Made by a program: the position numbers and the translations under genes
The notes under the pieces: model-generated
The model's database searches: none
Told to the model about the DNA's origin: nothing
Seen by the model: only the letters and a program-made list of their open reading frames with translations
In this document: piece after piece, positions 333-60,631 of the stretch
Position numbering within the stretch: the first letter of the stretch is position 1
Layout: each line of letters starts with the position of its first letter
Assembly (NCBI GenBank): GCA_963920765.1
Contig: OY987249.1
Coordinates: 2,761,230-2,825,229 of the forward strand
Direction of reading: 5' to 3'
DNA length: 64,000 nt
DNA from: Ulota crispa
Lineage: Eukaryota > Streptophyta > Bryopsida > Orthotrichales > Orthotrichaceae

Positions 333-1053
333 CCCCTAAAGGACCAAGCCCCCTTTTTGGGGACAAATGGGACTTTGGGCACATACCTATGACTAAACTA
401 CTTTGCGTAATTTTTTGAAACTTTAATGGGAGATAGGGAATTCAAAGATCTGTATAGGCATCTAATTTTTTCGTCATTCCGACATTTATTGAAGAAATTA
501 AAAATGAATATATGAGAATTTTAGTTTGGCGGGTAGCCCAAAAACTTCTTTAAAAATTGCATTTTTAACAAATAAAAATTTGAGGTTAGTTCTTTAGACT
601 TGCGTATATGTGGGAAGCTTTGAATCATTCAATTCTAATTGATGAGAAGAAAGTTATGAGAGGTTCCACTTTGCAAGTAGGTGTGGAGAATCTCAAAACA
701 CTACCTACACGCAAACTAAAACTTCCCATAACTTTCATCTCATTAATTAGAATTGAATGGTTCAAAGCTTCCCACATATACATAAGTCTAAAGAACTAAC
801 CTCAAATTTTTATTTGTTAAAAATGCAAATTTTAAAAAAGCTTCTGGGCTGCCCACCAAACTTAAATTCTCATAATTTTCATTTGTAACTTCTTCAATAA
901 ATGTTGGAATGAGGAAAAAATTTAGTGCTTACACAAATCTTTGAATTCCCCATCTCCCATAAAAGTTTCAAAAAATCACGCAAAGTAGTTTAGCCATAGA
1001 TACATGCCCAAAATCCCATTTGTCCCCGAAAAGGGGGCTTGGTCCTTCAGCGG
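333..1053. mobile_element. TTAA-flanked foldback element (piggyBac-like termini), 721 bp
   Basis: TTAA stands on both sides (329-332, 1054-1057). The ends are CCCCTAAAGGACCAAGCCCC and its inverted match, and the two arms pair for about 320 bp each around a spacer of about 85 bp, so nearly the whole element is one hairpin. No transposase. Confidence 0.8.
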
Positions 1054-1119
1054 TTAATGTTAAAAATGCCAATCATACAGCAACACATCTTCTATGCACA
1101 TGGGACTTGTAAGGGTTAA

Positions 1120-3292
1120 GGAATTGAACTGAAAAAGCCTTGGGTAAGAAAAGAGGATGAATCTGTCAACTTATTCTCAATGAAACAATAAATCCGCCAG
1201 ACTTCAGATCAAAGCAACTGAATTCGTGGATGAACGTTCAAATATAGATGGTCTTATCCAATGGTTTCCCTTACATGCATGTATTCTAGGGTACGTGTCG
1301 CTTGCCCATTGGCCGAACAAAACAAACTTCCACGGTGGAGCAAATTCCCATGCTGGCATGAAGTGAGAAAATAATGGGCAAAACCTTATTTTTTTTTAAA
1401 AAGAAAAAGTCTCCATGCACCCAGTCGGGCCAGTACTAGAATCAAAACCAAAAAAATACACAAATGTTCATTGATTAAGATTAAAATTTAAAAAGAGCGT
1501 GATGGGCACTTTCCACGAGTGCCACGAGGACCTGAGATGACATAGCAGACTGAGATATTTTGAAAAAAAGCAAAGCTACGCCATTATCAGCATCAGCACA
1601 CTTTCAGTCCCCTGTCGACATTCTGCACAAAAAATCAACTTCAAAAACAACATTCAAAAGTAAAGTTTTGGTTTTTAATAGCATAGTTCGAGAAGATTGC
1701 GGCAGGGCTTTCGGGGACACAAGCTCACAGCAGTCTCACATGGACAGTACAAGGAATCACAGGCCACCGACCAGCAAAAAGAGAGAAAAAACTCCGATAT
1801 ATCTGAGACTACAATCCAAAAAGATCGCAAAGCAAACGACATTGTAGGAACGAGAAGCAGGAAAAACTGTGCATTACGTCAAAAGCAACAATAAACAAAA
1901 CTAAATAAACTTCACATCCACAGACCATTTCTAGCCAACCTCAAAACTTTTCATCAATTAGAAACTCATGTTTCGTATAACCATTGACAAGTCTCCTTGC
2001 AGATTTATTCTCCAACATTGGGTATTCAAACCAAGAAGTACGGAAGAAAAAAGGTAGTACTTCAAGGTGTTGCAACGCAGAGAAAAATTACAAATTTTGC
2101 AGTGGGAAGGAAAATACGTTGGCAGGTCTATGCATCAATTGCTCACTTTTCATCTATAAGCTTCTCCAGCCTGTTGTTTTCAACGCAAACACAAAAGCAA
2201 GATTTGCTCTAATTCTATGACACATAAGGGCCAGGTAAAAGGGAGGGAAAGCTTGACACGTGAAAAGACTGCAAAATTGCGTTCATTAGCATAATGACTT
2301 TTCCAACATCTGAAACTACAAGTTTACTGGATTTTCAATCCAAGAATGAAAATAATCTACAAGCACAGCATGAAATGCAGGGGAAGGGGGGTTTCAAAAA
2401 TGCTGAGGAGACATGTGCACCTTATTTCCTTGAGAAGTGCAATGTCATCACCAACATAGAAATCTGCAAGAGAGACTAACGGCGATCATGTTTACAAACT
2501 CCGCTTTCTTGTCTTTTTTTTCTGTTTCCTCCAACTTTTTTTCCACTATTGACACAAATTTGAGCTTAATGACTTCTCTTTTTGCGTAACTGCCGAAAAA
2601 TAGTAAGGTAAAGGTAAATTTTGATAGCCATCACCACGTCTGTCTTAAGATCTCCTCCCCTTTCCCCTTCCCTCCCCCCTCCGGATTCTACTGAAAAAAA
2701 AAAACTCCAAACTGGATTGGCAGCGACCGGAACCACCGTTGTTAATAAAGCCTAAGAAGCCACATTATCTGGTCAATCTTTGCTGTAAGTGCAGGAATTA
2801 CACTGACACGGCAGTAGCACCACCCCCAGGCTCTCTTCTTCTTCTTCTTCTTCTTCTTCGCCTTCTTCCACCATCTCGATGCCTCAAAACTCTTCAGCTT
2901 CAAATCCAACCGACTAGAGAGGGGTTCAATTTAACACCTGTTCAAAACCTTAACCACAATGTCTAGATAATCATCACCTTTACAATCCACTTTGTTACAG
3001 AGCTTGCACCCACTTCCACTCTTGCCAGCTTTCCAAAGCCTGTTTCAGCCAAAGGAACCAGTTCAGAAGTCTCTCACAGCAACAACAATCCTTGAATGAC
3101 CAATACTTGACTGCTCGCATTGTGCAGGCATAGATTCAAAAGGCCAGCTTTTATATAATCATGTTTGCAAGAATTTGGCAAAAAAGGTATAATATCAGAT
3201 ACATAGAGAGTCACATTCTCAAAACAGCGAGAAATGAGTCCAACTTTGAGCCTTTAAGGGTTAACAGGAACCTTAGTACTAACGTCTTACCA
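1120..3292. other. Sequence 3' of the PIF gene, with a (TTC)n run
   Basis: Mostly single-copy looking DNA without a gene. A TTC microsatellite lies at about 2837-2860. CCTTTAAGGG followed by TTAA at 3251-3264, just beyond the PIF stop, is an orphan TTAA-family end within the probable 3' untranslated region. Confidence 0.45.
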
Positions 3293-3804
3293 CTAATGAG
3301 GAGGGCCGCCGTTCATATTAGCAGCCTGTTGCTGATGTGTGTGCTGTGGGTGCGATTGCGGCGGGTGCTGCTGGTGTTGTTGCTGATGTGGCTGGTGTTG
3401 TTGCTGATGTGGCTGATGTTGTTGCTGATTTGGCAGATGTTGCTGGAGCTGCTGGTGTTGTTGCTGATGTGGCTGGTGTTGTTGCTGATTTAGCTGGTGC
3501 TGTTGCTGATTTGGCTGATGTTGTTGCTGGTGCTGCTGGTGTTGTTGCTGATGTGGTTGGAGTTGGAGTTGTTGCTGGTGTTGTTGCTGCTGCTGCTGCA
3601 TTTGGTGCTGCATCAAGTAAGCATTGTACTTGTCCATTCCTAAAGCCTGCACATCGCACTAAACAAGTCCTTCAGACCAAGAAGGCCAAATTCACGGTAT
3701 ACAAGCACACAACCTGGGTAGGCAAAAGGGTTTATATCTACAAAAAATTCATAACTGTGTAAAAGGGAGGTTTAAGAGATCTAACCGGATTCATCTGCAT
3801 AGGC

Positions 3805-3836
<32 letters not shown>

Positions 3837-6376
3837 AAGGCGAGCCATATAAGCACCGTAAGAATCCATGACACCACCAGGAGTTTGATAGCGGAAGTCA
3901 TGCACGTCAACCATGTTAGGTGCACTGGTCATGTTGCCATTCATGGACGGCCCTGCATGAGATGGCATGGGCATCACCGCCCGCCCTTGTGCAGAAACGC
4001 CCATGTCCATCATTCCCATCCCCAGCCCCATTGGCATCATGCCCATGCCCATGCCCATCGACGGCATGGCTGCCATTTGCGACATCTGCATGTGCTGCTG
4101 CATCCCAGACGGCACAACCATTGGAGGCAAGGTCCCTGTCCTCATGGACATCATCTGCTTGAACAAAACATGTAGAATTAGCATTTTCACAGTTAAACTG
4201 ACGGTTGAGAAAAAATAACCAAATTGGTCCAAAATAGTTTCTGGCGAGCAAGTACCTGCAGCTGGACCTGGAGCAATTTCAGGTACTCAATTGCCTCGTC
4301 CAGCATGGATGCCTTGTCGGTCTAAAACACATACACCATTAGGCACACTTAGAACAGCATGAAGGAGAAAGTGACCATAACAATCCAACCAATGAAATAG
4401 TTAACCTCCAGAACATGGCAGCGTCAATACAAAAAACTAAGCCCTGAATGAAGATACTACGCACACCTTGTTAGAGTTCGGAATAAGCTCTTGCAAAGCT
4501 TTCATCTTCTCATTGATTCTGTCTCTTCGCCGCTGCAGAGAGCAAAAACCCAGGAGACAAACAAATGAACAAACATTCACAGAAAACTTCTCCCATCTCA
4601 AAAATTCCTAGACATAGACGAAAAAGGTTGCTTACTCTTTCTGACTGGTTGTGAACTTCGGCAGCTCTACTTCGTTTGGTTGTGCCACCACGACCAGTCG
4701 CAGGCTTCTTTGTATCTACCGACTCGTCTTCTCCGTCCTGCCAATGCAGACACACAACGAGATACAAATCAGGAAACCATGAAAAGTTGAGAACTCTGAG
4801 AATTTCATTTGGTATTACAGTTTCCAATTTTGGCTAAAGTCTTACTTCGCTTTGACATTCGGTTTCTTCCCTCTCGCTTGACTTCCTTTTAATGCTGGCA
4901 GAGGCCTCTTTAGGTCTTTCAGCACCTGTTCCATACCGGCCAGATGAGGATGTGATGGAAGGCTCCTGTATATCAGGGTGCTGCGTGACATGAGACACTC
5001 CTTTCCCCGACGACGTCGCAAGAGATACCTGAGAGCGGCAAGCTTCCTTCTCAGGAGGTGACATACTTTTACATTCACCTCCGGGAGCGAGATCCTTCAC
5101 CGGGGACATCTGAGGAGCAGTTTGCCATCTCAAATCCTCCAAGCCATTGCTCTGTTCCCTCTCTGTGGCTTCAAGTTGCACCTTCTCCTCTTGCCTGGCA
5201 GTGGCGGACTCTACAATAGAAGACCCGGAGGAAGTACATGCCTCCACATTAGGTCTCCCCACCTGCGGCTTAAACCGAGCATTATTAGGAGGTGGTGGTG
5301 GAGGGATAGGATGCAAGGATCCAGCCAGGCTATGCAAATTCGCTTTCACGATTGCAGCAGGCCTGGAGAAGTGGGAGAAGTTCATGGAGCCTGGTCGGTT
5401 ACCAGGTGGAGACTGGTGAGGCGCTACAGGCTGCTGCATTTTGGGAGGCAGCATAGGATTCGTGGGAGAAACCGAGGGAGATGTTTTCGACGTGGGCGCG
5501 ACCATGTTGGAGCCATTCATAGGTTGGTTCCATTTTTTGAGAGTAGACGGTTGCATGGAGTGCAGAGTTCGCACTTTGCTGAACGCATCAGCTCCAGCTT
5601 GCGGTAGAATGCCGGCAGCACGACCCGCGCCAAGCATCATGGCCGCATCTGCAGCTGCAATTCTGGAGTCAGCAGCTCCTGGTGATCCTCCTGAATGCGG
5701 AGGGCGCATTGTCCTGGTGACGCCATGGGCGAAAGACTCCTTCAACAACTGAGTGTTGGACTCTGGAGGATTTCCGAAGAACTCCGAGCAGTAGCTCCGC
5801 TCCAAGGTAGCATCCAGGGGATATTGCAACCACGACACCATCTCGTCATCGGCGGCATCGATGTTGTTGCTGTTGCTGTTGCTGTTGTTGTTGTTATGTG
5901 CCACATGCTGGGATTCTGTGGTGGTGTCATTTACCACGTCTTCCAAGGAGGCGTGGGACTTCAAAATGGCGGGCTTGCTTGGAGTCACTCCATCTTCAAT
6001 TCCCTGTTCATTGTTCCATCCGCTGTACTGCCACTGTGACTTGCTACATTTGCTACTTTGACCCTGCATGTCTAAATGTCCATTATCGATCCAGTCCAAT
6101 CCCAACGTGTCCTGATCAGGCCTGTCACAGATGCCGATCTCGAGTGTGTGAGAAGCAAAGTAAAAGAGAAGTGGACAAGATCTCAAAAGATGAGGACAAG
6201 CCATGTCATCACATGAAAAAATCATTCAAATTTTATACTTACACTTCGGAATAGTGACTCTTCCTGGACCTCACAAAATCCACTTTCCCGCCCACGTGTC
6301 CCTGTAAGCCTTTTGAAGGGATCAAAGAATCAAGCATACCGCCACTCCTATCTCGCTCTGGCACACAGAGGCTCAT
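3293..6376 (-). CDS. PIF: PIF-type bHLH transcription factor, seven coding exons, 792 aa
   Basis: Nuclear regulator expected to bind G-box/E-box DNA as a dimer and to interact with phytochrome. Coding exons in transcript order are 6376-6243, 6121-4846, 4737-4636, 4532-4467, 4321-4256, 4154-3786 and 3658-3293; phases agree throughout and introns are 101-145 bp with GT-AG ends (first donor GTAAGTAT). The start is the first ATG after an in-frame stop. Residues 487-545 form the bHLH ([18 protein letters not shown], then [33 protein letters not shown]), preceded by the usual PIF lead-in REETECQSE and [10 protein letters not shown] second PIF motif, [11 protein letters not shown], lies in exon 2. 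The phytochrome-B-binding site near residues 50-62 reads [19 protein letters not shown] and lacks the conserved Glu and Gln of ELxxxxGQ. Asn/Ser repeats, Met/Gly repeats and a Gln/His-rich tail (about residues 685-785) are low complexity. The family call is secure; exon ends are read by eye. Confidence 0.93.
6293..6298. promoter_or_regulatory. G-box CACGTG within PIF exon 1
   Basis: The palindrome CACGTG (context CCCACGTGTC) is the preferred target of PIF proteins. It lies about 80 bases inside the coding sequence of this PIF gene. Confidence 0.4.
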
Positions 6377-6415
6377 AGTATGACAACTGCATCACGAGTA
6401 GAATTTCTCAGATTC

Positions 6416-6499
6416 TCAGATTCTCAGTTCTCTACATACATGACTGGATGATTCGAAGAGATGTTGTTCGGCATGCAAGTCCCGAAAAAAGCACTGCAT
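6416..6499 (-). promoter_or_regulatory. Possible upstream ORF in the PIF 5' leader (27 codons)
   Basis: An ATG at 6499 opens a 27-codon frame (starting MQCFFRDLHAEQH) that ends 39 bases before the PIF start at 6376. If the transcript includes it, it could reduce or condition PIF translation. The transcript start is unknown, so this is only a candidate. Confidence 0.3.
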
Positions 6500-8247
6500 C
6501 GTGAGATAAGAAAGAGTCGCTATGAAAGCTAGCGCAAGAAGCGGCTATCACAGAAACTACGGCTTCGTCAAGTCGCTTTGCAAATCAGTGGGGGAGGTCA
6601 ATATAGAAGTACCGAAATGCAAAAACTCGTGTTCATCTTCGAGGAAGACAGCGGAATGCACCAAAAAGGATATGGTCTGTTTCAATGACCCCTTTTCAGC
6701 TGTGCTGGAGCCAGCAGTCACGCAACCTAAAATACCAACCTCAGACAAGCCTTGCCAGAGAAACAGGCGAGGCTGTCAGCCGCTACCCTCTCTCTTCCCC
6801 CGCTGACAACTCAAAACGCCCATAAATTTTTGACAAGGCATAAACAGAATTCACACCTCTCACAAAAGCAGCAGCACGGAGTGACCACTGTCCTGCTCCC
6901 TTCTTCTTCTTCCTCAAAGGCTTCCTTACAACACACCCGACGCTAGTTTCGCACCGTCGTCGTCACCACCTCGACAAATCCAGCGACACCACTCTCGCAT
7001 TCACGCATTCGCCACTCCAAATCCCACTCCACTACTGGATTACTCTACACCGCCAGGATTGCTGCTACTGCCACTGCTCACTACCCACCCACCCACTCAC
7101 TCACTCACGCAACTCCAGTCTGTCTCTTCTTCCAAGATCACGGTCTCAGCTGAACCCCACCTTATTCTCCACGCATTTCGATCCTCCGCACACACCCTCC
7201 CAAACCTCAAACACACACTCTCTCTCACGCACACACACCCAATCTCTTTCTAAACCAAACAACACCCGTCACGCACAACCCCCGCTCACACATTGAAGAG
7301 CACCTCCAGCTCCCCCACCCCCAACAAAGCCACTGACAACAACCGGCAAGAAAGCAGCGAGGTTCGAAAGCTACAAGAAAGAAGGAGAGATTGGACGATG
7401 CGGGGAGAGGCCAGGAGGCATCATCTCATCATCATCCGCATCTCCATAATCTCCTCCGCTATTCCTGTGCATGCGCAGATGTGGGACGGATTGGGCAACT
7501 GAAGTGACACAACACACGTCCAAGCCCACGCAGTGGAATCTCTGGCAATCACAAGCGAGGCTGGGTGCTGGGGGCGGGCATCCTGGCATCCAGGCTCTTT
7601 TCTGCGAGCTCTCTCGCGCACCAAAGCGCGGATGGGAACACCAACGGCGAGCTGGAAGAGGCGGACGAGGAGGGAGGAAGGGCTGGAGCGAGCGAGCAAG
7701 AGAGAGAGAGAGCCAGAGTGGGTGGGGGCGAAATCCTTCCAGCAGTGCAGCGAGAGCCCGGCCCCACGGGGATCCAATCATGCGGCAGCCGCGCTCCCAA
7801 GCCAAGGGGTGCGATATCGCTACTACACCGCCCCCGCTTCGATCACCGCTTCATTTAGCCGCCCGCTCGCCCGCCTCAGCCGCGCGGTTGCGGTACTGCC
7901 CGCGCTGCGCTGCCCCGACTTGCCAGGGTTTCGTCAGAGTCTCCCGGCGCCCCGTTGCCTTTCGTGCGCGCCTCAAAATCTACGCAACCAACTAAGCTCG
8001 ATTCCCCTCTCGGTTTTTTTCATTACCCGGGCAAAATTGCCCGCTGCCCTGCTGCCCTGCTGCCCGTTCTGGACACTGTCTTGCACTTTAATTTTGACTC
8101 TTGGTGGGGTGCCACATTGACCGTTGTAGCCCTTTAATTTCAGAAGGGACAAAGAACGGGAAACTTTTTTGTATGAATATGTTTTGTATATGCACACCCT
8201 GCACATGCTGCTTCTTGGAGTAGGGACAAGCTAAAGAAATTGGGGTG
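6500..8247 (-). promoter_or_regulatory. PIF 5' leader and probable promoter region
   Basis: No coding gene is seen here. From about 6895 to 7330 the minus strand is GA-rich (the plus strand carries CCACC, CACTCACT and CTCTCTC runs), typical of a plant 5' untranslated leader. From about 7500 to 7990 the base composition turns strongly GC-rich, unlike the AT-rich surroundings, as expected for a promoter or CpG-rich first region. The large reading frames on both strands here look like products of GC content. Confidence 0.45.
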
Positions 8248-8588
8248 CACTGAATATTGCGTTTAGGTTGCCCCAGACTAATTTCTTGACATTTTGTGAA
8301 ATGTAAATATTTACAGCTGTTACCATAGTTTTCATCAATAATTATTGTAATATAAATCATTTTTAAAGGTCTTGGCAACAACAATGATGGTGCAGAAAAA
8401 TGAATTAGCGGGCAACAACAATGATGGTGCAGAAAAATGAATTAGCGGCATCCATGTTGTAAACCATGTGAAATCGTTGAATTGAGAGAGTTGCATGAGT
8501 CTCCAATTGGCCAAACAATGAAATATGAGGTAACTTTATAGGATAAGGCAACCGAATCGTGATGGCAACCTAATTGCGATGTTCAGTG
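8248..8588. mobile_element. TA-target MITE with GCGTTTAGGTTGCC ends
   Basis: Ends CACTGAATATTGCGTTTAGG and GGCAACCTAATTGCGATGTT...CAGTG are inverted copies; TA follows the right end and TG (probably a changed TA) precedes the left. A 37-bp direct duplication lies inside at 8374-8410 and 8411-8447. Non-autonomous; same family as 38180, 43625 and 47791-48685. Confidence 0.8.
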
Positions 8589-11027: not shown

Positions 11028-11076
11028 TGAATATACATATACATACATGTACATATACATATACATGTACATATAC

Positions 11077-11128
<52 letters not shown>
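11028..11128. repeat. (AT)n / (ACAT)n microsatellite
   Basis: About 55 bp of mixed ATAC/ACAT repeats are followed by 19 pure AT units at 11083-11120. Confidence 0.95.
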
Positions 11129-11129
<1 letters not shown>

Positions 11130-11253: not shown

Positions 11254-11487
11254 CCCTTAAAGGATGAGGCTACTATTGTACATACTATGTACGCTGTTGT
11301 ACAACTGGCATTTACTACCAACAAAAAGTTTTAATTTGGGATCTTAATTACCTCACTAGAACAACATTGATTTGTATTCTAACTTCTTTGTTGATCTCAA
11401 ATGTAATAAAGGTGTGGATGCACTCCAAATACAAGAAAAGTACACCGTATTATACTGGTTGCAAAGGGCTGCCTTATCTTTTAGGGG
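11254..11487. mobile_element. TTAA-flanked MITE (piggyBac-like termini), 234 bp
   Basis: TTAA at 11250-11253 and 11488-11491; ends CCCTTAAAGGATGAGGC and, inverted, CCCCTAAAAGATAAGGC. Confidence 0.75.
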
Positions 11488-12539
11488 TTAATAACCCTAA
11501 CCACACAATTTTTTCATCCTTTTACATTTAAATTATGATATATTTTTCTTGATGAAGATTGAATCTGGAATTTTTTGGTTTTTTTATTTTATTCTTTTTG
11601 TTCTTATGGATGGCAAACATGTGGCTTCTTGTAGTATAATGGTTGGTAATCAGTGTTCCTTTGCTATTATTAATTCTTGAATCCATTTGCTTATAGTATT
11701 GATAGCTTATATATGTTTTTTGTCTTGAACTTCAAAAACAACAATGTATTTAAGATTTTTGATTTTGTGCCTAATTTTCTATTGTTGTGTGTCTAAAAGT
11801 GGTATTTTTGCTTTTGTAGAAACACATGTTGGTTAGTAATCAAACATTAGTAGATCTTATACAAATGAATATCCAAAGATAGCTGGATATATATAAATGA
11901 ACATGAGTCAATTAGCTTTGTGACAATTTTGTGCACCCAAAATTCTGAAACTTTATATTTGTTTTTATAAGGATCTTTACAATTGCTTATTTGGTACACA
12001 TGCTATATTTAGTATTGAATATTGCTTTTTGTGCTTTTATAATGAAATTTTTTTGTACAAAAAAAATCTTTTGTCTTGTAATATTACTGATATTTGCTAT
12101 ATATTGCTCTTTGGTTGAGAACGCAAAAAAATTGAACTATCAATTTAGCAAAAAGATACAAGAAAACCTACATTATTTGTGTGTCAACATTGATTTTGAC
12201 CAAGAATGTTTACATGATTGTGCAACTATATTGATATTCAATATCATGCATTTTGTGAATGGTAGGTGTAAAGAAATTGCAGAAAACTAGGATCTAACAT
12301 ATGCAAAATAATCATTTACTGTTTGAGTTTGAACTCAAGTAATGATATGGATAGTGCACCCAAACCTAAAATCTTAAATGTCATGTCACATAAGCATTAT
12401 CCAAGGATTTTCAAAACAATTTGTGTTTTTAAGCAATAATAACTTGGAACACAAGTTGCATGAATTAGAATATGTGGATTTCTCTCCAATTGATTTTACA
12501 AACAATTTAAAAAGGAGGTGATACAAAAGCTAACTTAAA

Positions 12540-20284: not shown

Positions 20285-21727
20285 GGGACAAAATGGACTT
20301 GGATAGGCTTGTACTTTTGGGAATTTTGAACAAATTAAGGAAAAAAACATGGTCAAGAGTTTTGCAAAGGGTTTTTTGGAATATAATTTTTTGTTGAGAT
20401 CAATTTTACAATTCAAAATTCATGGGGAATTTGGAGAAATTACACATGAAGGGACAAGTTAGACATGTCAATTGCCCTTAACTTTCTCCAAGGGCAAGCT
20501 AAGAAGGCAAATCTGCCATTAGAAGGGGCGGAGGGTGAAGTTCTTCTATTCCCTATGTATATTTAGGACTTTATGGAGTCACATATTGAATAGGAGAACA
20601 TTGATGCCATAGGAAGCTATTTCAATGTGCATTAGTCTAATAAGAATTGATTGCATTCATAAAGCATTGAATAATAGAAAAAAAAGAATTAGATATTCAA
20701 GGCTGGGCCACACTGACCTTAACCATTGTTTCAAAACATCAATTTGTGAAAAACATGCATTTATTGCCTAGTGTAAAAGCATATTCTTTGAATTTTTATG
20801 CTTGCATTTTTGGTCTATTCAAACTGACGTTTTTGAAAATTTGCAAACCAATGTCTCAAACCTCATGCCCTAGAATGGTGGAAAGGTTATTTTTAGTAGA
20901 ACATTATTAGATGAAACCTTGGAAAAATTATTATCTCCAAATTTTTCCAAATTTTTCCAAATTTTTCAAAAATACAAGTTACTTTTTCATCCGTTTCAAA
21001 CCGGTTGTTTTGGCATGTGTAGCCCCGGCACTAATGATAGGAATAAACTTGAAAACATTTTGCAAACTGATAAAGCCATATTGAGTCCCTTCATTTGAGT
21101 ATGCCAAAGCATTGGTACATTAGATAAATATATTAGCCTTTGAAGCGATAATCATTAGATGTTTATTTTTTATTTATTTTTTCTTCAATGGTTGTCAATA
21201 AAGCAAAAAAAAATCATTATACCGTTTGAATTTGTATTTTCAAACATATGCCTTGGAATTTTAGTTCTTTTAAATCTCACATTACATGAATTCCTAGCAC
21301 ATGCTTGAAATACAATGCCGTAAAGAGTGTGTTTCATGTTTTTGTTGGCTATGAAAATTTGTGGAGGTATTTCTAATGTGCTACAAAGTTCGTTGGATCA
21401 GTAAATTTAGTACAAAAAGTGTCCACAACAAGCGGTCAAAGAAACCTTAAATTTTTAGGCAGAAGCCTTTTTTTTATTTTTTATAATAGCTTCAAATAAT
21501 CATATCTCTTGATCCATATTGTCAAATGTCACAAATTTTTTATTGTGTCTTTCTATGTAAATTTTATGCAGGATTCTATGATTAGATCTCTAAAACAAAA
21601 TATAAAAATTGTTCTTAAGATGAAAGGATTAGATATAGAAACTATAAGTACTTTATGAGAAAAAAAAATGAGCTTGGTCATCTAAGGGTTAAGCTTCCAT
21701 CTTCAAATTCCAAAGGATCAATCTTCC
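20285..21727. other. AT-rich intergenic DNA with one orphan TTAA-family end
   Basis: No gene seen. CATCTAAGGG followed by TTAA at 21689-21692 looks like the right end of another piggyBac-like element whose left end I could not find. Confidence 0.4.
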
Positions 21728-23884: not shown

Positions 23885-24231
23885 AAAACATACATAACTT
23901 CAATCCACTTACGGCTTTTCAAAATCTCTTTCACATTTTTTAAAATGAATTTCTAGTGTGAAATTTTCTCCAAGATCTAGTATATTTGAGGCTCATTTTC
24001 ATGAGCTCTTGATACTAAAAAAAGTCAAGATTGCAACTGACACCCTTACACAAAATCTTGAATAGAAAATTTAAAATCAATAATTTTCAAAATTGGGGTT
24101 GTGATGCTAAAACTAGATTTCAAAAATAATAATTCTAAAATACTAAATACTAAAAATAGCATCTTAGTTAGGTTTTATTGAACTTCAAAATATTGTCAGC
24201 ACCAAAATGTGGTGCCTTGGGCATTTAGGGG
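23885..24231. mobile_element. Partial TTAA-family element, second copy of the 1-328 repeat
   Basis: Aligns with 1-328 and ends GGGCATTTAGGGG directly before TTAA (24232-24235). The left end was not found. Confidence 0.6.
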
Positions 24232-27227: not shown

Positions 27228-28442
27228 CCCCTCAAGGACTGAGCCATTTTTTCAGTGAAAATCACTCAAAACTGTCATTTTTGGGGGTTAGTAAGAAGGT
27301 AATTTTTTTTGAAAATTTGTAAAATCCAAAAGTAGGATCTTGCCCTAGACTGGATTAGGTACTTGTGAAAAAAAAATCAAGTCATTCCGGATGGACATGA
27401 GTGAGTTATTTACATCTAAAGTGAAAAGAAATTTTTTTTTCATGTTGCTGCAAATTTTCAAAAGCCTTTGGCCATTCTTACATGAAAATAATCGCTCTAC
27501 GCAACTTTGCGCTTTATTTGTCCCATGTAGGAGATCAAGTTAGCTATGTGTGGGAGAATTTTCAAATCAATTGGAACTACACAACACATAGGAAAAATCA
27601 GTAAGTAAAAAGAAGTAGAGAATGAGTCAAATCACTAAATTGTTAAGAATTTAAATATTAAAATGAAAAATAAAAATCCCAACAGTCATAATGTTGTGAT
27701 AAACAATTTACATCCTTTGGTTTTATTTTTTTCCAAAATTGTAAAAATTAAGTAAAATAAAGGACTTCAAAGTTTATTTTAGAGTAGAGAATCCATCACT
27801 GCTTGCAAACAGAAGCTCCTCATAACTTTCATATCATTGATTGAAATTGAATGATTCAAAGCTTATCACCTATAAAAAAATCTAAAGAACCAATTTCAAA
27901 TTTTAATTTAAAAAAATAAAATTTAAAGAAGTTTTTGGGCTGCCCAAGCGGGCAGTCCTCCCTTGCTTTTCAGATTTTCATGCATAACTTCATTACAAGG
28001 GATTTGGACCCAAGAAAGGGCAGTGAGTTTGGATGTTCCCAATGCCATTGCTGGTCATTAGAAAAAAAATTATAAAAAAATAAAAAAAAATAAAAGTCAA
28101 AAAATAAAAGTCAATTTTTGTTTCCAAAAATAATAATTAAATAATAATGTTTGATGTGGTGGCACTAATGCCATGTCATACTGCTGCAAATTGCTTATGT
28201 GGAAGTGTTGTGGAATTGTTCCCAAAGTTCCCATAGTTTTGGGGGAAGGGGCCCATTCTTGGGTCCAAATCCCTTGTAATGCTTCAATAATTGTCGGAAT
28301 GAGGAAAAACTTAGATGCCCGCGTAGATCTTTGAATTCCCCACCTTCAATAATAGTTTCAGAAAATCACACAAAGTAGTTTATCTAAAGGTACATGCCCT
28401 AACTCCCACCTGTCCCTCGAAGGGAAAACAGTCCTTTAGGGG
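27228..28442. mobile_element. TTAA-flanked element (piggyBac-like termini), 1.2 kb
   Basis: TTAA at 27224-27227 and 28443-28446; ends CCCCTCAAGGACTG and, inverted, CCCCTAAAGGACTG. Its right half is related to 333-1053 (GGAATGAGGAAAAA, ATCTTTGAATTCCCC). A CACTA-like MITE is inserted in it. Confidence 0.72.
27991..28281. mobile_element. CATTACAAGGG-family MITE nested in the TTAA element, 291 bp
   Basis: Inverted ends CATTACAAGGGATTTGGACC and GGTCCAAATCCCTTGTAATG, flanked by CTT on both sides. The surrounding sequence matches the uninterrupted relative at about 885-905, which fixes the insertion point. Close relative of 21728-22027. Confidence 0.82.
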
Positions 28443-49017: not shown

Positions 49018-49025
49018 TTACGTAA

Positions 49026-49337: not shown

Positions 49338-49341
49338 TTAA

Positions 49342-49701
49342 CCCCTAACAGTCCAAGAGGACAAAAATTGTCCTTTCAATGCTGAAAACATACCCCGAGG
49401 GTGGAAAAAGATTTGTTTTCAAATTTTTTTTCTTGAAAGTGGTCAGAGAGATGTGCCACATCACTGAATGCCAAAAATAACTGCTTTCAATGCCTCCATA
49501 TTTTTTAAAACACCAATTTGTAAAGAGATGTACAAGGTCCCTGCTGCCCTTTTTGTGAGGGTAGAATACACTATTGACTTTTCCTTTTTTTGAGGAGAAT
49601 ATTATCTCTCTTAGACACATGCTATAGACTGTTCACTACCCATGAACAATGCACTCTTAGACCCAGGTTGGCCACAGGTTCAGAGTCAGTCCTTTTAAGG
49701 G
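49342..49701. mobile_element. TTAA-flanked MITE (piggyBac-like termini), 360 bp
   Basis: TTAA at 49338-49341 (shared with the preceding element) and 49702-49705; ends CCCCTAACAGTCC and, inverted, CCCTTAAAAGGACTG. It ends about 155 bp before the ATG of the secreted-protein gene. Confidence 0.65.
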
Positions 49702-51856: not shown

Positions 51857-52758
51857 CCCTTTAAGGACCACACCCATTTTCACAAAATCCATTGAAAACA
51901 GGGGATGTAAGCTTAGATTTGCAATTGACTCAAATATGGACCCATTTTCAATAATCCAACCATACAAATGAGGACACCTTGTTTACTGTAAATCACCAAA
52001 ATTTCAGCTAGATCTATCGTTGGAGGTGAATCATTATAATGATTGAGTGAGCCGTATGCTAAAAATCTCTAGTGTTTCATGCTTGTGTGGTTTTGAATGT
52101 TAACACTTTGTGCCGGCTTTGATTAAAAAGAGCCTTACATTTCTAGAAAGTAGGGTTTCCCACCTTCACAATAAAACTGGTTTCACACAGAATAGACAAA
52201 ATAGCAATCACAAGGTGTAGCTAAGTGGACAAAAAGGGTCAAAATCCCATTTTCTTTGCTACCCTAAAGCAATTCTACAAGAAAATTGATAATTATTTTG
52301 GAAAATCCAATTGGTGAAAAAAATCAAGAATTGGCCTTTAATGTTGGAAGACAAACTTTAAAGCCAACATGACAACACCATTTTAGTAGATCTTCAAATA
52401 CTACAATTATACCACTACTGTATAGGAAAACAATACAAGCATATTTTTTAAGCAATTTGAATTTTTTTAGAATTGTGCAATTGAAATTTGACATTCTTCT
52501 TGCATACTTGATGTATCGTGTTGTTGCTTTGATCCATCTTTGACAAAAAATGGATATGTATTTTGACACCATGCCGTATAAACACCATTATTTATCAACT
52601 CACATACTTGATTGCATTGTTATTTTTTTAGATGGATGCAAAATTCTTGTGATCACATGCATTCTTCAAGATCAAATTCCAAGTTATTGAGCGATTTCAA
52701 CCTACAGGCCAAAAACCATTCCCAATGACCAAAATATGGTCTTGTGGTCCTTAAAAGG
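51857..52758. mobile_element. TTAA-flanked element (piggyBac-like termini), 902 bp
   Basis: TTAA at 51853-51856 and 52759-52762; ends CCCTTTAAGGACCACACCC and, inverted, CCTTTTAAGGACCACAAGACC. No transposase. Confidence 0.75.
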
Positions 52759-52820
52759 TTAAGAAGATGCAATAATTACTGCACTCTCCACCAACAAGAT
52801 TAGTCATTTGACGATAAAAA

Positions 52821-53030
52821 TGTAGGAACAGTACACAAAATTACTAATACTGCACTAGACCAGATGACTGGTGAGAGGAGACTGAGCCACCTTATATGCA
52901 TATTGGCGCCGTCTCCACTACCTACGTATTAATTAATCACACTAATTACCTGTACCTATGCTAATTAGGTAGCTGCTGGGAGTAACTAAACCCTAACAGT
53001 TCACTGGTGTCAGAGGCACTAGTTACAACA
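52821..53030 (-). repeat. Copia 3' LTR
   Basis: 210 bp, TG...CA ends, about 94% identical to the other LTR. It is the 3' LTR because the element reads leftwards. Confidence 0.93.
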
Positions 53031-53139
53031 CCCCTCCTTGCACGGGATGGATCTTATCTAGTGCGCTTTTGTTCTTGCAGTCATAGTTCATCCTAGTCGG
53101 GAAACAATTGGTCGCTGCTGTAGTTATCTCTCCAAAGAA

Positions 53140-53796
53140 TTGACTGTGTGGCAGTTGTTCCTCTTTGTTCTGTGGTTGTTGGCTGTGCTGGTTGGGAAAA
53201 TTGCAAAGGTGGCCTTGACTTATCTTCTGACGTGCTTTTTGGATTCATTCGAGGAGGATGGAAGCAATTCCTGCAAAGAATCAGTGGCCAGTTTTGGGAC
53301 TGTTGAGGAATTGGTGCCGTTGTCCTCTGATTCGGAGGTGGACACTATTGAGTTAGAAGATTTGCTCCCGCAAATTGACTTCTCTGAATTCAAAGAGGTG
53401 CTATTGCCGTTATCGGCTGGTGTCGTAGAGACTGGGGTTTCCTTGACTTGGTTAGGTTCTCCATCGTTGCCTCTTTTACTTCGTCTTCATACCATCAATC
53501 ATCCTTGGAGTATGTTGGAGACTTCTTTGATTGAGTGGAATGCTAGGGTGTTTGTCAGATTGGACTTTGCTGGCTATTCTAGGGCTTTTCCTCCTGGTTC
53601 CCAAGGTTATTTGTCTGTAGAGCAGCGTTTTTGTATTGAGATTGAGTATTTTTGGAGATTGATTTATGAGAATATGAACATGTTTTCGGGTGATTTTAGG
53701 TTAAGTACGTTCAGGAGTTGGCCTGTTCCATCCTATGTTTCCTTGGAGGGTTGCCCTCCATTTGTAATGCGGTGCCCAGAGTATTATGGGATATGA
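53140..53796 (+). CDS. Antisense open reading frame (218 codons) inside the Copia element
   Basis: This uninterrupted frame runs opposite to gag-pol in the roughly 930-bp space between the RNase H part and the 3' LTR. Its first 35 residues are strongly hydrophobic (MTVWQLFLFVLWLLAVLVGK), then an acidic segment (SDSEVDTIELEDLLPQIDF) and a Trp/aromatic-rich body. Antisense accessory frames between pol and the 3' LTR are known in several plant LTR-element lineages, where their roles are unclear. I recognise no domain. It may be a chance frame, but it is long for this AT-rich DNA and lies in the usual position. Confidence 0.45.
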   Translation: MTVWQLFLFVLWLLAVLVGKIAKVALTYLLTCFLDSFEEDGSNSCKESVASFGTVEELVPLSSDSEVDTIELEDLLPQIDFSEFKEVLLPLSAGVVETGVSLTWLGSPSLPLLLRLHTINHPWSMLETSLIEWNARVFVRLDFAGYSRAFPPGSQGYLSVEQRFCIEIEYFWRLIYENMNMFSGDFRLSTFRSWPVPSYVSLEGCPPFVMRCPEYYGI

Positions 53797-56700
53797 ATAA
53801 ATTGCTGTTGGGAGATACCAAGTTCATGTTTCTCTTTGGCCAATTTCACTAACCCTAGTTTGTTTTTGAGTCTTTCGAAGGCTGTTCTCCCTAGGGCTTT
53901 GGTGAATATATTGGCTGTCTGTTCATTGGTTGGTATGTACTCCAATTCGATTTCTCTGCTTTATATTTTTTCCCTGATGAAATGGTGTCTTACTTCTATG
54001 TATTTTGTGGATTTATGGTAGATGGGGTTGTGGGCCAAATTTAGGCTCCCTTGATTGTCTTCATAGATGATTGTGGGTTTCTCGCTATTGTGCACTTGGA
54101 GTTCTCCAAGTAGTCTGCGTAGCCATACTCCTTCTTTGGTTCCCTCTGTGATGACCATGTATTCAAATTTCGTTGAAGATAGTGCTACTGTTGGTTGCTT
54201 TTTGCTGTTCCAGGTGATTGGAGTTTTTCCTAGCATGAATATATATCCAGTGGTGGATTTTCTGCCATGAGTGTCACCTGCCCAGTCGGCATCTGTGAAT
54301 CCATATAGGTCACTTTCCTCCCTTTGCCGATATAGTAATGTAAAATCAGTAGTACCTTGTAAGTAGCAATAGATCCGTTTTACTGCTTGAAGGTGGGTGT
54401 CCTATGGCTGAGACATGAACCGGCTGACAATGTTGACGGCATAGCCAATGTCGGGTCTTGTGTAAGAGAGGAATATCAATTTGCCAACCATGCGCTGATA
54501 AGTGGTTGTGTCTGATAGGGGCGCTTGCATGTCTGGTTGGAGTTGAAGTTTTTCAAGCATGGGGGTGCTAGCAAGGCGACAATCTTGGAGTCCAAATTCA
54601 CCCAAAAGCGAGCAAATGTACTGCCGTTGAGTGACTGCAATCCCTTCATCAAGAAAGAGAAATTTGAGGCTAAGGGAAAAAGTTAAGAGGCCTAGGTCCG
54701 TCATCTCGAATTCTTCCTGGATGTGTTTTTGGATTGAGGCAATATGGAGCGTGTCATCTCTTGTGAGATAGATATCATTCATATAGAGGTTAAGAAGTGT
54801 CAGTTTGCCCTCTCAATGTGTGTAGTACATGTTCAAGTTAGCTTGAGACTTCTGGAGTCCTTGAGTCTGTAAGTAAGTATCAACCTTGTTGTACCAAGTT
54901 CTGGGAGTCTGCTTTAGGCCGTAGAATGCCTTTCTAAGTTTGCATACTTGTGTGCTAGGGCTGGAAGGCTAAAATCCGGGTGGTGGTGAGACGTATATGT
55001 CTTTGTCAAGAAGGCTGTCTTAACGTCAAGGTGGTGGATTTGCCACCCTCGGTGTCCTGCTAGGGTGAGTATGCTATGGAGCATGTTCCATTTTACCACT
55101 GGTGCAAAGGTTTCTGCATAATCCTCCCCTACTTTTTGTTTGAATCCGGGTACCACAAGCCTGGCTTTCAGCTTAGCTAGAGTGCCATCAACGTGGGTTT
55201 TAACTCGGAATATCTACTTTGTGGTGAGGGCCTTTTTCTATGCAGGAAGTGGGACTAAGTCCTGTGTGTGGTTTTTGTGAATAGATACTAGTTCACTGTC
55301 CATTGCCTCTTTCCAGCCAAGATGGAAGTGGGACTAAATCCCATGTGTGGTTTTTGTGAATAGATACTAGTTCACTGTCCATTGCCTCTTTCCAGCCAAG
55401 AGTGTCCTTGTGATCTGTAGGTAGACATATGGACGGGTGGAAGATTTTTGCGGCGTGAAGATGAAAATCATCTAAGTAGGTTGGGATTCTACTTATGCGG
55501 CCACTCCAAGTGATGCAAGGTATGTGGGGGGGGGGGGTCTGAGAGTAGGTATGACATGATCAAGTGAGGCTAGAGGTGAAGAGCTGAGGGCTGACTTGAT
55601 TGGGCTGGGAAGAAGTTCGTCTTCCGATGCCATTGGCGCTGGCAATTGTAATGCTGGTGCTAGTGGGGCCTCCATTCCGTCTTTGTGTTGGTCCGCCTCT
55701 TGTGTGATTGGGGGAGGCAGCATAGCTGGGGTGCCCAACTCGAGGAGTGTTGGAGGTGCACCTTTTGTGTTGATTGGATAGTTGAAGTAGTTGTCAGGTG
55801 ATCTAGCCTTTGCAGCAGTGCGTGGGTCTCGTGTGACTTTGGGATTGGGATAGTTGATGTGTCCAATTCCAATGCTGTCCCGTAGGGAAAACAGTGTCTT
55901 GTCAAATTGCACATCTTTTGATATGAGAAATTTCCTTGTGTGGCAGCAATAGTTTCTGTAACCCCTAGATTTGTTGTCATAGCCCAGGAAGATGCAGCTA
56001 ATGGCGCGAGTTGCCCATTTCTTCTGGAAAGGGGATGTATCCAAGATATAAGATTGACAGCCGAAGATGCAAATGTGGTGGACAAAGGGAATTTTTCCAA
56101 AGAGGCGGTGATATGGAGATTCACCTGAGTTTGCTCTTGTGGATGTTCTATTGATGATATAGTTTGCAGTAGAGACCGCTTTTGTCCACAGATGCGCTGG
56201 TAGTTTGGAGTCGTGAGCCATGCTGCGCACTTTTTTGAGGAGACTCTTGTTCTTCCTCTCGGCTACACCATTTTGATGCAATGTGTGGACTTATGTATAT
56301 TCCTGTATAATACCAGTGTCACCACAGAACTTGGTGAAGTTGCGTGACATGTACTCCCTTCCTTTGTCTGAACAAATGGCTTTTATTTTGGAGTTGTATT
56401 GCAGTTCAGCAAGGAGTCTGAATTTCTTGAACTGGTCAAGCATTTTGCTTTTGTGTTTCAAAAAATATAGCCAAATATACCTGCTAAAGTTGTTTGTCAA
56501 TATCATGATGTATCTTGAGCCGGAGTTGGAGGATGGTGTGATTGGGCCACAAAGATCCGTATGGATCAGGGCAAATGGACTTGCGTCTCGAAGGGAGCGG
56601 CTAGAGCACTTCAGAGCTTGCGGGTCCTGGTCTTGGCTTGCAGTTTTGGTTGTTTTGTTGGATCTTGTGTCTCCCCAAGGGATCCATATTTGTGCTTGCT

Positions 56701-58304
56701 TCCCAACTTGATACCACATACGTGAGTGTTGATTGCTAGTGGGGGGAGGCCTGTAGCTTTGCCTATGGAGGCCTTATGTACTAGTGTTCTGAGGTTTGCA
56801 TGTGCCATTCGCCTATGCCATAGTAGTAAGGTGTCCTTCATGGAGCTTGAGACAACCGTATGGGCCATGAGATCAGGAGGCTTGAACCTATATAGGCCAT
56901 TCTTGGTATTCCTGGTTCCTCTTGCAACTACTTGGTAGTGTTTTGGAAGTGAGAAGTGTTTCAAAAGTAATTCTTGGTTTGAGTCAAACAAAACATGGAG
57001 TGATTCTGATGTATCAGTGATTGATTCTACTGAGAGGAGGTTTTTTGTTATCCTTGGCACATAAAGAACATCACCAAATTCTATTTCCCAAGAATAGGTT
57101 GGAACATTGGTGTTGCCTATGCTTGCAACAGGGAGGGAGTCGCCCTTGGCGGTTCTAACCTTTGTATTGCTACCTAAAGCTAGGTCCTCTAGTGAATCTG
57201 GCTAACCGGTAACATGCTTGGTGGCACCACTGTCGAGGTACCACTCGTCGTGGGGCCTAGATTTTGCGATGTTTACCTCGGTAAAGTGGGCGGCTAGTTC
57301 TTCCTCAGAGTCAGAGGAGTCATCGCCCCCAAGGTCGCCGCCGCTCATGTTGTCAATGAGGTTGACGTTGGGGCACTCAGGGCGTTTCTAGAGCTCTTGA
57401 CGATCGTTCCGGCAGCGCTTCAGTTCCGGGGCAAGTTCAAGGCAGGTCTTGATCCAATGCTCCTTACTCCTACAGTAATGACAGTCCCCAGCCGGTTTCT
57501 TCTTCTTCTGCCAGCTGCTAGATGAGGTTTTCCTCCCAAGCGCCTTGGTTAAGAGAGCCTCGTTGTCCAACCGGTTGTTGAAGAGCTCCCGCCGTGTATC
57601 TTCTTTGAGCAGAATGTTGGAGAGTTCAGCAATGGTGGGAAGCACTGCCTGGTACGTCAATGTGTTGACCATATCCTGATAGCTCTTGGGAAGCGCCATG
57701 AGGACATGTTGGACAACCTTTGAGTTAGAGATCTTCTTGCCAACACGCCGAGTTCCTTGAGAATTTGTTGAACTGACTGCAGAAACTCCAACATTGGTTG
57801 TCCTTCGGCGTGCTTCAGGGTGGTGAGTTTCCTCCAAAGGAGGATCTTGCGAGAATTAGTTGTCCCTGCATACAAGTTCTTGAGTACGTTCCAACACTCT
57901 GCAGGGTTGGAGATGTCGGAAATGTAAGGGATGATGTGGTCCCAAACAGCCAACGCAATGAGCCCCAAGGCTCGTTCCTTCAATTCTTTGAGGGCTGCAA
58001 CGGCGGCTGGTTTAGCTGGAGCAACCACACCTGCAGGGGGAGACACAAGTTTCCAAGTACCGTCACGTCGCATCAGATGCTGCATCTTATAGCTCCATGC
58101 ACTATAGTTTGTGGTGCCTTCCAGCTTGGAAGCTTCACTCACAGTGGTATCTCCATGCGCCATGCTAACATACTCAGAAAGTGTGGTGGGCTCCGTAGGT
58201 CTAAAGGTCCTTACGACTGGATCTGTCTTGATGCCTAGCTCTACTATTCTGCAAGAACACTTAGGATGAGGGAGTCTGAGGGCGGAACGGAGCTTCTGAT
58301 ACCA

Positions 58305-58514
58305 TGTAGGAACAATACACAAAATTACTAAAACTGCACTAGACCAGATGACTAGTGAGAGGAGACTGAGCCACCTTATACGCATACTGGCGCCGTCTCC
58401 ACTACCTACGTATTAATTAACCACACTAATTACTTGTACCTATGCTAATTAGGTAGCTGTTGGGAGTAACTAAACCCTAACGGTTCACTAGTGTCAAAAG
58501 CACTAGTTACAACA
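58305..58514 (-). repeat. Copia 5' LTR
   Basis: 210 bp, TG...CA ends; the tRNA-Met primer site lies directly inside it at about 58280-58304. Confidence 0.93.
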
Positions 58515-58570
58515 GAAAACCAGCACAACAAGGTGCAACGTGGGTTGCAAGAGGTGAAACTTCTCCTGCT

Positions 58571-58626
58571 AAACTTCTCATTGCCCCATTCTTCATCTCC
58601 AGAGAAGAATGGGGCGGTGAGAAGTT
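58571..58626. repeat. Short hairpin next to the Copia element
   Basis: AACTTCTCATTGCCCCATTC and its inverse pair over about 23 bases (two mismatches) around a 9-base loop. Function unknown. Confidence 0.7.
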
Positions 58627-58835
58627 CAACACGCTAACCAAAACAAAAGCTCCAGCAACCAACAACAAAGCGACATGTTTGCGTTCTCATCCACCACAGC
58701 CGGCCAAGAAAGTGCTGTGACTACCCCTATTTATTTGTTGTTGTGGACAAATGTTGGACGATTGGATGAGTTTGGTAATCTACAATCGTTGTCGAAGGTG
58801 ATGATTGCAGCGCCTTATTCTATCTTTGAGGTTTA

Positions 58836-59207
58836 GAGCATCTCCACCGCAAACGCAACAACAAATGTAAATGCAACTGTCGCGGGAAGGAAGAACTTTT
58901 GAGCTCCACTGCATCCATGCCAAAGCCTTTCCCGATCTATTCGGCAATGCTATAAGCTCCCATCCATGCCACTCTCCAGGTCTTTTGCATTCACATTATA
59001 ACTCACTCAAGGACTCAAATAGGTTGAGGCTTGTTCTTGCTCGTTTCCTCTTGCGGCACAAGAGAGAAGAAACGACAAAGTAGCATGAGTGCACGGTGGA
59101 AGAGCTCCCAAAAAGGCAGAACTGGTACTTGTAGTGGCCCGACGTGGTAGCCCTTGGATCTATTCTCTAGTCGCGTTTGATGTTGCAGAAATGCAATGGA
59201 CATGCCC
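58836..59207. mobile_element. Harbinger-like element, 372 bp, TTA target duplication
   Basis: Ends GAGCATCTCCACCGCAAACG and, inverted, GGGCATGTCCATTGCA, with TTA at 58833-58835 and 59208-59210. The left part recurs at 30838-30990. Confidence 0.7.
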
Positions 59208-59728
59208 TTAGTGCGACATTCAAGCTCCACTTTTGTCAACAACAAATGTCTTTTTCGAATCCGTCTTTCATGGAATAGTCCAATTTTTGCGTATTTTGCG
59301 TTCTAAGCTCGCTATTGAAGAGTTGTTTGCGATTCGCACTTCGTAGAATTGTAGATTGTTCATTTTATTATTTTGCAGCTCATATCGCTTATTACTGAAC
59401 GTTTCTGTGTCGCATCTGGGGAGTGTATGTGTAAGTTTGGAAAACCAGGTGAGTGACATACCATAGCTCGTTAGGTTTTTCCTCCAAATGTTTGATAGGT
59501 ATTGAAACGCAATTAAATCTTACTGTGGAGAATTCTGTTTTTTCATCCCAGTAACAGGATTGTCTGCTTAGTTATCTCTTCGTGCAAAGCAGGAGCGACT
59601 TGTCATTGAGTGAAACCAAGGATGATGGGCAGCAAGTGTGAAAGTACTTTCACTCGATGCTTGGTTTCTTAAGGCAATTAGATTTGTGGAATATTTCTAG
59701 CTGAAGTAAAAAAGACATGACTCTTTTA

Positions 59729-60090
59729 CCCTTAAACGTTGAAGAGGACGTTTTTTTTGGTCCTCCCGCTTTAAAAAAAGATTTTGTACTATAAAAAACT
59801 TGTTTTTTGTTTGTTTTTTTTTCAAAAGCGATTGTAAACACATGATCCATCTTGGAATGCAAAATATTATCTCATTAGGTGCACTTATATTTTTCGGTAA
59901 CCCAAATTGTGAGAAGATTCAGAGACACAATGTTAGATCTCAAGCTGCCCATCTTGCAATTTTCATGAGGGCACCATGCAATGTTCACTTTGCAACCTCA
60001 AGAAATAATATATAATTGTTGGGCACTTGCTACTACTGTAGAGAGTATTGTAGCCGGGCTAGTCATAATGACCAATCTGGTGTTTGAGGG
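59729..60090. mobile_element. TTAA-type element (piggyBac-like termini), degenerate, 362 bp
   Basis: Ends CCCTTAAACG and, inverted, CCCTCAAACA; right flank TTAA (60091-60094), left flank TTTA. Confidence 0.5.
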
Positions 60091-60631
60091 TTAAGATATG
60101 TGTTGAGAGGTTTTATAAAAACTTAACTAGAGCATGTTCTTGCCAATAGGTTTACCCTCTTTCTTTTGCATAATCAACAAATGATTTGATAGTTGCAATT
60201 AAAAAATCATGCTCATTTGTAAAATTGTGGTCATAGATTTGGAAGGGGGTCATCAATTTTGAAGAAACAACTATCAATACCTTAAATGAAGTTGTTTTTT
60301 TTGTTTGTTTGTTTGTTTGTTTGTCACATTAAGATCTCCCAAACCGTATGCCCTTGTTGTATGCTTGGTACCATCGAAAAGCTCTCAGCAAGGAGGAGTG
60401 CACAATTTTGTGACATTTGGGCATATGGTGGAAAAGTTATTGAATTTATAAGTTTTTTATGGATTAAAAATTTAGGAAATCACTTTTACTTTTATTTTGG
60501 TGGTGTTCTTGGTATTGTCGGAAAGCTCTCGCTCAGGAGGGGTGCATAGGCTTGGTTTTGTGGCTTTTGGAATTACTTCCATGATACTTACATTAGAAGT
60601 TTTGGGCATCTCCAAGATAATTAATTTTTTT
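60091..60631. other. AT-rich DNA with (TTTG)n and an imperfect duplication
   Basis: A TTTG microsatellite lies at about 60298-60323. GAAAAGCTCTCAGCAAGGAGG near 60376 is repeated in diverged form (GGAAAGCTCTCGCTCAGGAGG) near 60519. No gene seen. Confidence 0.5.

Follow-up and report, generated by a model that had tools for sequence, protein, structure and literature searches.

The short TTAA-flanked elements scattered through the 64,000-nucleotide stretch of contig OY987249.1 analysed here (positions 2,761,230 to 2,825,229; hereafter the window) are, with a probability of roughly 0.93, non-autonomous derivatives, similar to miniature inverted-repeat transposable elements (MITEs), of transposons of the piggyBac superfamily that this plant genome harbours. 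An earlier note had proposed a piggyBac-type MITE family from the TTAA targets and CCC termini in the window, and this assignment is now supported in addition by the transposase domain PF13843 lying between the same ends, by a triad of catalytic aspartates (DDD) and by a cysteine-rich C terminus. The superfamily is a known one; its host is unexpected and its scale, with thousands of copies, is large.

On re-reading the window we found all six elements at the positions given earlier, with TTAA on both sides in five and TTTA to the left of element 6. The 12-mers quoted for their ends are exact at 2 of the 12 ends (element 1 left, element 3 right) and deviate by one to several bases at the rest, and two of the right ends, those of elements 1 and 5, start with CCG and CCT instead of CCC. 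Sites matching TTAACCCYTAAAGGAC with up to three mismatches number 17 in the window, whereas 100 shuffles averaged 1.18 and never exceeded 5, and TTAACCCYT occurs 13 times where 1.86 are expected (shuffle maximum 6). Of the unpaired ends listed previously, those at 24231, 21688 and 328 can now be placed in elements or families, those at 1115, 3260 and 61273 remaining ends only. No transposase was found in the window, in agreement with the earlier note: tblastn with four piggyBac protein pieces of this genome gave no match in it at E<=1e-3. The elements and related pieces are as follows.

1..328: right-hand portion of a 23587-24231-type element truncated at the window edge, its end sharing the TTAA at 329-332 with element 1
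333..1053: element 1, 721 bp, TTAA at 329-332 and 1054-1057, ends CCCCTAAAGGACC / CCGCTGAAGGACC, piggyBac-type non-autonomous, almost wholly self-inverted
11254..11487: element 2, 234 bp, TTAA on both sides, ends CCCTTAAAGGAT / CCCCTAAAAGAT, interior partly recurring in loci L048 and L075
21296..21688, plus strand: fragment ending at the TTAA at 21689-21692, homologous to the right end of XL011 (contig C7)
23587..24231: seventh element, 645 bp, with a degraded left end (TTA-CCCTAAATGCCC) and with CCCCTAAATGCCC followed by TTAA on the right
27228..28442, plus strand: element 3, 1,215 bp, member of the ~0.92-kb family with a nested insert
27992..28281: insert in element 3, ~290 bp, with 31-bp inverted ends (CATTACAAGGG...)
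49342..49701: element 4, 360 bp, TTAA on both sides, ends CCCCTAACAGTCC / CCCTTAAAAGGAC
51857..52758: element 5, 902 bp, TTAA on both sides, ends CCCTTTAAGGACC / CCTTTTAAGGACC, with L077 and L036 each containing a copy of nearly full length (81-82%)
59729..60090: element 6, 362 bp, TTTA left and TTAA right, ends CCCTTAAACGTT / CCCTCAAACACC, parts recurring in L005, L006, L029 and L077

Transposase genes are present elsewhere in the genome. The piggyBac transposase domain PF13843 matches at least 120 stretches (best E=1.3e-73), found on each of contigs C1-C11; this count is a lower bound, with 116 of 528 candidates scored, and in a few cases a single copy contributes two stretches. The same domain gave no match in 14 control genomes. 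Of the 120 listed stretches 110 are interrupted by stops, and stop-free piggyBac frames were read in L030 (2451-3866, 472 aa), L031 (2428-3855, 476 aa) and L032 (2814-3980, minus strand, 389 aa). The 389-aa frame matches Myotis piggyBat (9c0f) at E=2.6e-24 and T. ni piggyBac (6x67) at E=7.6e-20; PF13843 is matched by the frames of 389, 472, 476 and 309 aa at E=4e-67, 1e-47, 8e-60 and 1e-25, respectively, and a fifth, unrelated frame in the same Pfam test matched no family. The catalytic aspartates of T. ni piggyBac are D268, D346 and D447, according to the available text of PMC7351741, and all three are kept in 15 of the 23 transposase loci compared (the 20 best-scoring and three others, one of them the locus of the DDD query itself), the other 8 being substituted at one or more positions. 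After the domain, L026 carries a Cys/His-rich tail (CxxC...CxxC...C...C...H) to which the tails of L011 (47%) and L025 (43%, most cysteines gone) are homologous; several other loci give weak short matches to it, and the strict pattern is seen in 2 of the 23 only. The median pairwise amino-acid identity among these loci is 35%, and clustering by single linkage with a 50% cut-off divides them into nine lineages, a diversity that suggests long residence or several entries and not one recent invasion. In the 7 kb read around L032 no transposon ends were recognised, and this copy may be young, decaying or domesticated.

Wider flanks were read for 11 transposases, of which L009, L018 and L014 were chosen with their right ends known and L025 and L026 as relatives of L011; the ends of these two and of the other six were unknown beforehand. 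In 9 of the 11 (6 of the 8 with ends unknown) the domain is followed, 1.36-2.10 kb downstream, by a TTAA-CCC end belonging to the element itself, and both ends are present in 6 of the 11, delimiting elements of 5.0-8.0 kb. The complete elements, with lengths that include the flanking sites, are these.

C3: complete transposase-bearing element, 5,027 bp
C10: complete transposase-bearing element, 5,026 bp, left site TTCA
C2: complete transposase-bearing element, 5,102 bp
C8: complete transposase-bearing element, 5,586 bp
C1: complete transposase-bearing element, 7,495 bp
C7: complete transposase-bearing element, 8,033 bp

Homology between the C3 and C10 copies extends over 5,029 bp (90.5%), with limits that coincide with the end sites to within a base, so that for this transposase-bearing pair too the true ends lie at the CCC. 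Termini starting with CCC are common to all six complete elements and to the short elements, the exceptions being the CCG and CCT of the window. Two candidates were dropped from the list, L030 (C8), whose supposed right end CCCTTAAAGGACC belongs to a complete ~960-bp MITE downstream, and L031, whose left end at 2629 is also that of a MITE. Within the C7 element, ~0.4 kb past the transposase domain, there is a tandem array of 52-bp units (L011 3030-3629). Inverted repeats of ~880 bp that are 92-95% self-complementary stand near piggyBac copies at XL026 3385-4259 (the L026/L091 join) and L036 1555-2429, and apparently form a separate hairpin-type repeat family.

Short and long elements are tied together through one transposase clade, comprising L011 (C7), L025 (C5) and L026 (C9), with transposase identities of 57% between L011 and L025 and 63% between L025 and L026, and with ends in CCCCTAAA[A/G]G. 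PF13843 lies between two MITE-type ends in the C7 element and is accompanied by the right end alone in C5 and C9. The C7 termini read CCCCTAAAAGCCCACTTGTCCC and CCCCTAAAGGCCCAAGCCCATTTTTT; the left one resembles the right end of the ~0.92-kb copies over about 49 bp (82-84%, and 90% for the related L064), and the right one resembles their left end over 53-58 bp (79-83%). The C5 and C9 elements end in CCCCTAAAAGACC / CCCCTAAAGGATT, their 3' ends reading CCCCTAAAAGACCAAGCC and CCCCTAAAGGATTGAGG, and their final 0.35-0.52 kb resembles the start of the ~0.92-kb family (71-79%): the start of element 3 matches XL025 (C5) at 75% over 358 columns and XL026 (C9) at 71% over 343, while a related subgroup of the family matches as much as 0.52 kb of these 3' ends. 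In both elements the MITE-like piece stops at TTAA ~1.7 kb after the transposase domain, the remainder of the short element being absent, and C5 and C9 align with each other through it (71% over 528 columns). A partial piece, at a like place and homologous in the two, is not what independent MITE insertions would leave, so that the short family either descends from this piggyBac clade or has a common ancestor with it. Left ends of C5 and C9 were not found within about 5.2 kb upstream. The earlier note had allowed for an autonomous relative of another superfamily; the relatives found, in a profile search that covered PF13843, carry that piggyBac domain. The short elements have the marks of MITEs in being short, in their high copy number and in ends common to a transposase-bearing element. 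By the usual yardstick ~0.92 kb is long for a MITE.

Across the 274.8-Mb genome exact TTAACCCYTAAAGGAC occurs at 12,001 sites and the reversed pattern at none; with two ends per element at most, this gives at least ~6,000 elements, in several related families. The 16-mer CCCCTAAAGGACCAAG alone is found at 3,614 sites, again with no match for the reversed pattern, and the first 30 of these, all on C1 and with a few paired ends or duplicates among them, served as a sample of ends taken blind to the flanks. TTAA stands immediately before 23 of the 30, and a rough search for mates gave TTAA on both sides for 13 and no mate for 5. We also aligned nine copies of the ~0.92-kb family, selected for TTAA at both ends so that its presence there is not independent evidence. 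Majority agreement is 98% over the first 16 element bases and 88% over the last 16 and drops to merely 47% and 44% in the 30-base flanks, and thus the likeness stops at TTAA. The true ends accordingly do not lie beyond the CCC, an objection that had been anticipated, since the copies resemble one another up to the TTAA and have unrelated sequence beyond it. Elements abut on a single TTAA at window positions 317-344 and in L050, L051 and L052; the end-to-end junction YAGRGGTTAACCCCTAAAGG has 384 matches (reversed pattern 0), palindromic junctions being counted twice, and GGG, GAG or AGG precedes the TTAA in 2 of the 23 TTAA-flanked sampled ends. A special end-to-end mode of insertion was considered and rejected, as the 384 junctions are ~3% of the 12,001 ends and by our estimate resemble ordinary reuse of flanking TTAA sites.

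Empty sites were read for two element copies sitting inside other repeats, L064 and L053. The occupied L064 locus reads TTAA-element-TTAA; when its flanks are joined at one TTAA, 39 of the 40 matches listed are other places in the genome that match across the junction, and the first ten all have a single site, TTAA in nine and TTAG in one. At L053, 38 of the 40 matches listed are other places, all across the junction, and the ten empty relatives read near the top of the list again have a single site throughout, here TCAA, TAAA or shorter. The expectation of empty sites with one TTAA therefore holds at L064, and L053 shows a single target which is not TTAA. The host repeat at L053 is related to the C7 piggyBac element, and the copy that received the insertion had probably acquired a TTAA by mutation beforehand.

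Several observations weigh against a piggyBac origin of the short elements. TTAA is read in none of the ten L053 empty relatives, and 7 of the 30 flank-blind ends are preceded by something else, namely ATAA (2), AAAG (2, mutual repeats), TTTA, CTAG and CTAA. Both MITE-type ends occur in the C7 element only, where the shared left-end stretch is ~49 bp, element 3 itself gives no match to that element at E<=1e-4, and elements 2, 4, 5 and 6 are tied to piggyBac by TTAA and termini only. Transposase lineages outside the clade differ in their inner end bases (CCCTTGCA, CCCCTCATCGCC, CCCTTTA). Of the 11 transposases with wider flanks, L030 and L032 have no own downstream end that could be found and five no own left end; in 20 loci with 1.5-kb flanks a CCCCTAAAGGAC-type end was found in none and any downstream TTAACCC end in only 3. 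A script requiring TTAA and 11 of 14 end bases, applied to single and joined loci, returned one pair, and wider flanks were needed.

Sola3 and Kolobok are likewise TTAA-targeting, and the short elements could belong to such a superfamily that merely coexists with piggyBac in the genome. Sola is listed as a plant superfamily, with Sola1 given for Physcomitrella, in the available text of PMC9033089, but, with PF13843 as the transposase profile searched in the genome, we regard this explanation as very unlikely, because the ~0.92-kb family is homologous to PF13843-bearing elements, over part of its length and at two ends, and because of the CCC termini common to the six complete piggyBac elements. 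The target sequence itself is palindromic, so that TA + ACCCC...GGGGT + TA reads identically and the L064 empty sites fit either division; the elements might on this account be Tc1/mariner or PIF/Harbinger MITEs with a TA or TTA/TAA duplication, a terminal inverted repeat (TIR) starting with A and a preference for TTAA. A TA or TWA duplication should leave the outer base free, yet that base is T in 23 of the 26 sampled ends reading NTAA, and the linked transposase is PF13843, making an origin of this kind highly improbable.

The link between transposase and MITE could also have arisen by chance, MITEs being everywhere and hence near piggyBac genes, and chance adjacency did occur at the L030 "right end" (the ~960-bp MITE) and the L031 "left end" (again a MITE). 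To this we give very little credence for the C5 and C9 elements, which hold only the first part of the MITE, ending at TTAA ~1.7 kb past the domain and mutually homologous. That piggyBac has been described mostly from animals, fungi and protists raises the thought that DNA of such an organism contaminates the plant assembly, which is next to impossible with PF13843 stretches on each of C1-C11 and, alongside such stretches on C4, an exon encoding the SAM domain of LEAFY (PF01698 E=1.2e-27; Ginkgo LFY 4ude E=3e-20). LEAFY is not known from outside the land plants and streptophyte algae. Of the land-plant host claimed earlier, the gene thus confirms a streptophyte; that it is a land plant proper, and a moss, is what we infer.

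In the explanation favoured here, the 5-8 kb elements carry the gene for a DDD transposase, which would recognise CCC[C/T]T... termini, including those of shortened copies, excise the copies and insert them at TTAA with duplication of the TTAA. The ~0.92-kb family comprises two related subgroups, one including element 3, and has kept 0.35-0.52 kb resembling the 3' end of the long elements, with copies keeping ~49 bp resembling the 5' end. The short elements would be moved in trans by these transposases, and excision would be seamless. We infer here the mechanism established for piggyBac, whose transposase synapses the ends, excises via a TTAA hairpin and integrates at TTAA (available text of PMC7351741). 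The main burst of transposition appears to be past, since the best-scoring relatives of element 3 are 91-93% identical to it and transposase copies contain many stops.

Insects hold piggyBac-derived MITEs, which resemble the elements described here in being non-autonomous TTAA-flanked piggyBac derivatives; the present ones differ in their streptophyte host and in the length of the main family (~0.92 kb). T. ni piggyBac (6x67) and Myotis piggyBat (9c0f) share with the long elements PF13843 with equivalents of D268, D346 and D447, the TTAA target, the CCC termini and, for some copies here, the Cys/His-rich C terminus, whereas the host is a plant, the inner TIR bases differ and the 23 copies fall into nine lineages of less than 50% amino-acid identity. 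The complete elements, at 5-8 kb, are also longer than T. ni piggyBac, for which the source text available gives 2,472 bp.

The earlier statement that piggyBac lacks general recognition in land plants is in line with two plant surveys and is qualified by other papers in which plants or red algae are mentioned among the hosts. The superfamilies listed in a review of transposons in land plants are Tc1-Mariner, hAT, Sola, MULE, PIF-Harbinger and CACTA, and the word "piggyBac" occurs 0 times in its available text (PMC9033089); a MITE survey of 207 plant genomes, four bryophytes included, has neither "piggyBac" nor "TTAA" in its main text (PMC12550479). The MITEs of that survey, like those here, are many short inverted-repeat elements needing a transposase made elsewhere, and differ in that a TTAA target with a piggyBac transposase is a class absent from the survey's main text. 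Plants or red algae are named in passing as piggyBac hosts in the accessible parts of PMC10813416, PMC10140906, PMC8086355, PMC12732532 and PMC10794571. The label "PiggyBac" appears in tables for Ceratopteris (1,230 pieces, 122 kb, average ~100 bp; PMC6890710) and Stipa (1 piece of 75 bp; PMC8319324); the label is common to those genomes and ours, but as far as these sources were available the rows come without ends, target or transposase, while complete elements are present here. One of the two occurrences of the word in the accessible text of a moss genome paper (PMC10619864) is "piggybacking". Among the papers listed, none was found that by title or start of abstract describes a native piggyBac in a moss or other land plant, a search that covers the subscription literature thinly and leaves room for a prior report.

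It seems reasonably likely that piggyBac is a long-standing and diversified component of a land-plant (probably moss) lineage, with nine transposase lineages among 23 copies and as parent of a MITE class of at least 6,000 copies, and that such elements have gone without a name or been wrongly classified in plant surveys working with five or six superfamilies. The known range of a superfamily described chiefly in animals, fungi and protists is thereby extended to a plant genome, with complete elements, a target with empty sites and very high copy number. This suggests that plant annotation schemes that have no TTAA/piggyBac class can miss a large class of repeats, and it makes vertical descent and horizontal transfer testable against each other. 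Judged from its sequence, the genome may also hold a native plant piggyBac transposase; the piggyBac with which markers have been excised in plants is reportedly animal-derived, in the title of a cited paper.

Within the window, element 3 is a ~923-bp copy broken by the ~290-bp insert, which the 39 other best-scoring genome copies skip; these relatives (the best 40 of 8,608 candidates, element 3 included) match from 1 to ~768, at 91-93% identity, and from ~1059 to 1223. A CACTA-like label for the insert was considered from its CATTAC ends and was not adopted, the target duplication being unsettled. Element 1 and the seventh element share sequence with other TTAA-flanked copies. Element 1 matches the self-inverted repeat at L033 530-1255 in both orientations (77.5 and 78.8%), and its family is a single long inverted repeat over the entire ~720 bp, 96% self-complementary in the L033 copy; a transcript would fold as a long hairpin and might be a source of small RNA. 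The seventh element aligns from 23587 with L051 (77% over 579 columns) and with L052 (75%), and window positions 1-263 match L050 at 80% over 264 columns, which is the basis for placing the end at 328 in the same family. The fragment at 21296..21688 matches the right end of XL011 at 64.5% over 409 columns (E=2e-11), and a further copy of element 4 adjoins the C9 transposase element (85% over 375-381 columns).

Rfam and ARAGORN gave no matches. Of five window open reading frames searched against Pfam, two have matches, all of Copia type. The 463-aa open frame at 4834-6225 (minus strand) has no Pfam match, and its N-terminal part presumably resembles plant phytochrome-interacting factors. The remains of a Copia-type retrotransposon lie at 55493-58385 (minus strand), with matches to gag (PF14223) and to an SH3-like domain (PF25597).

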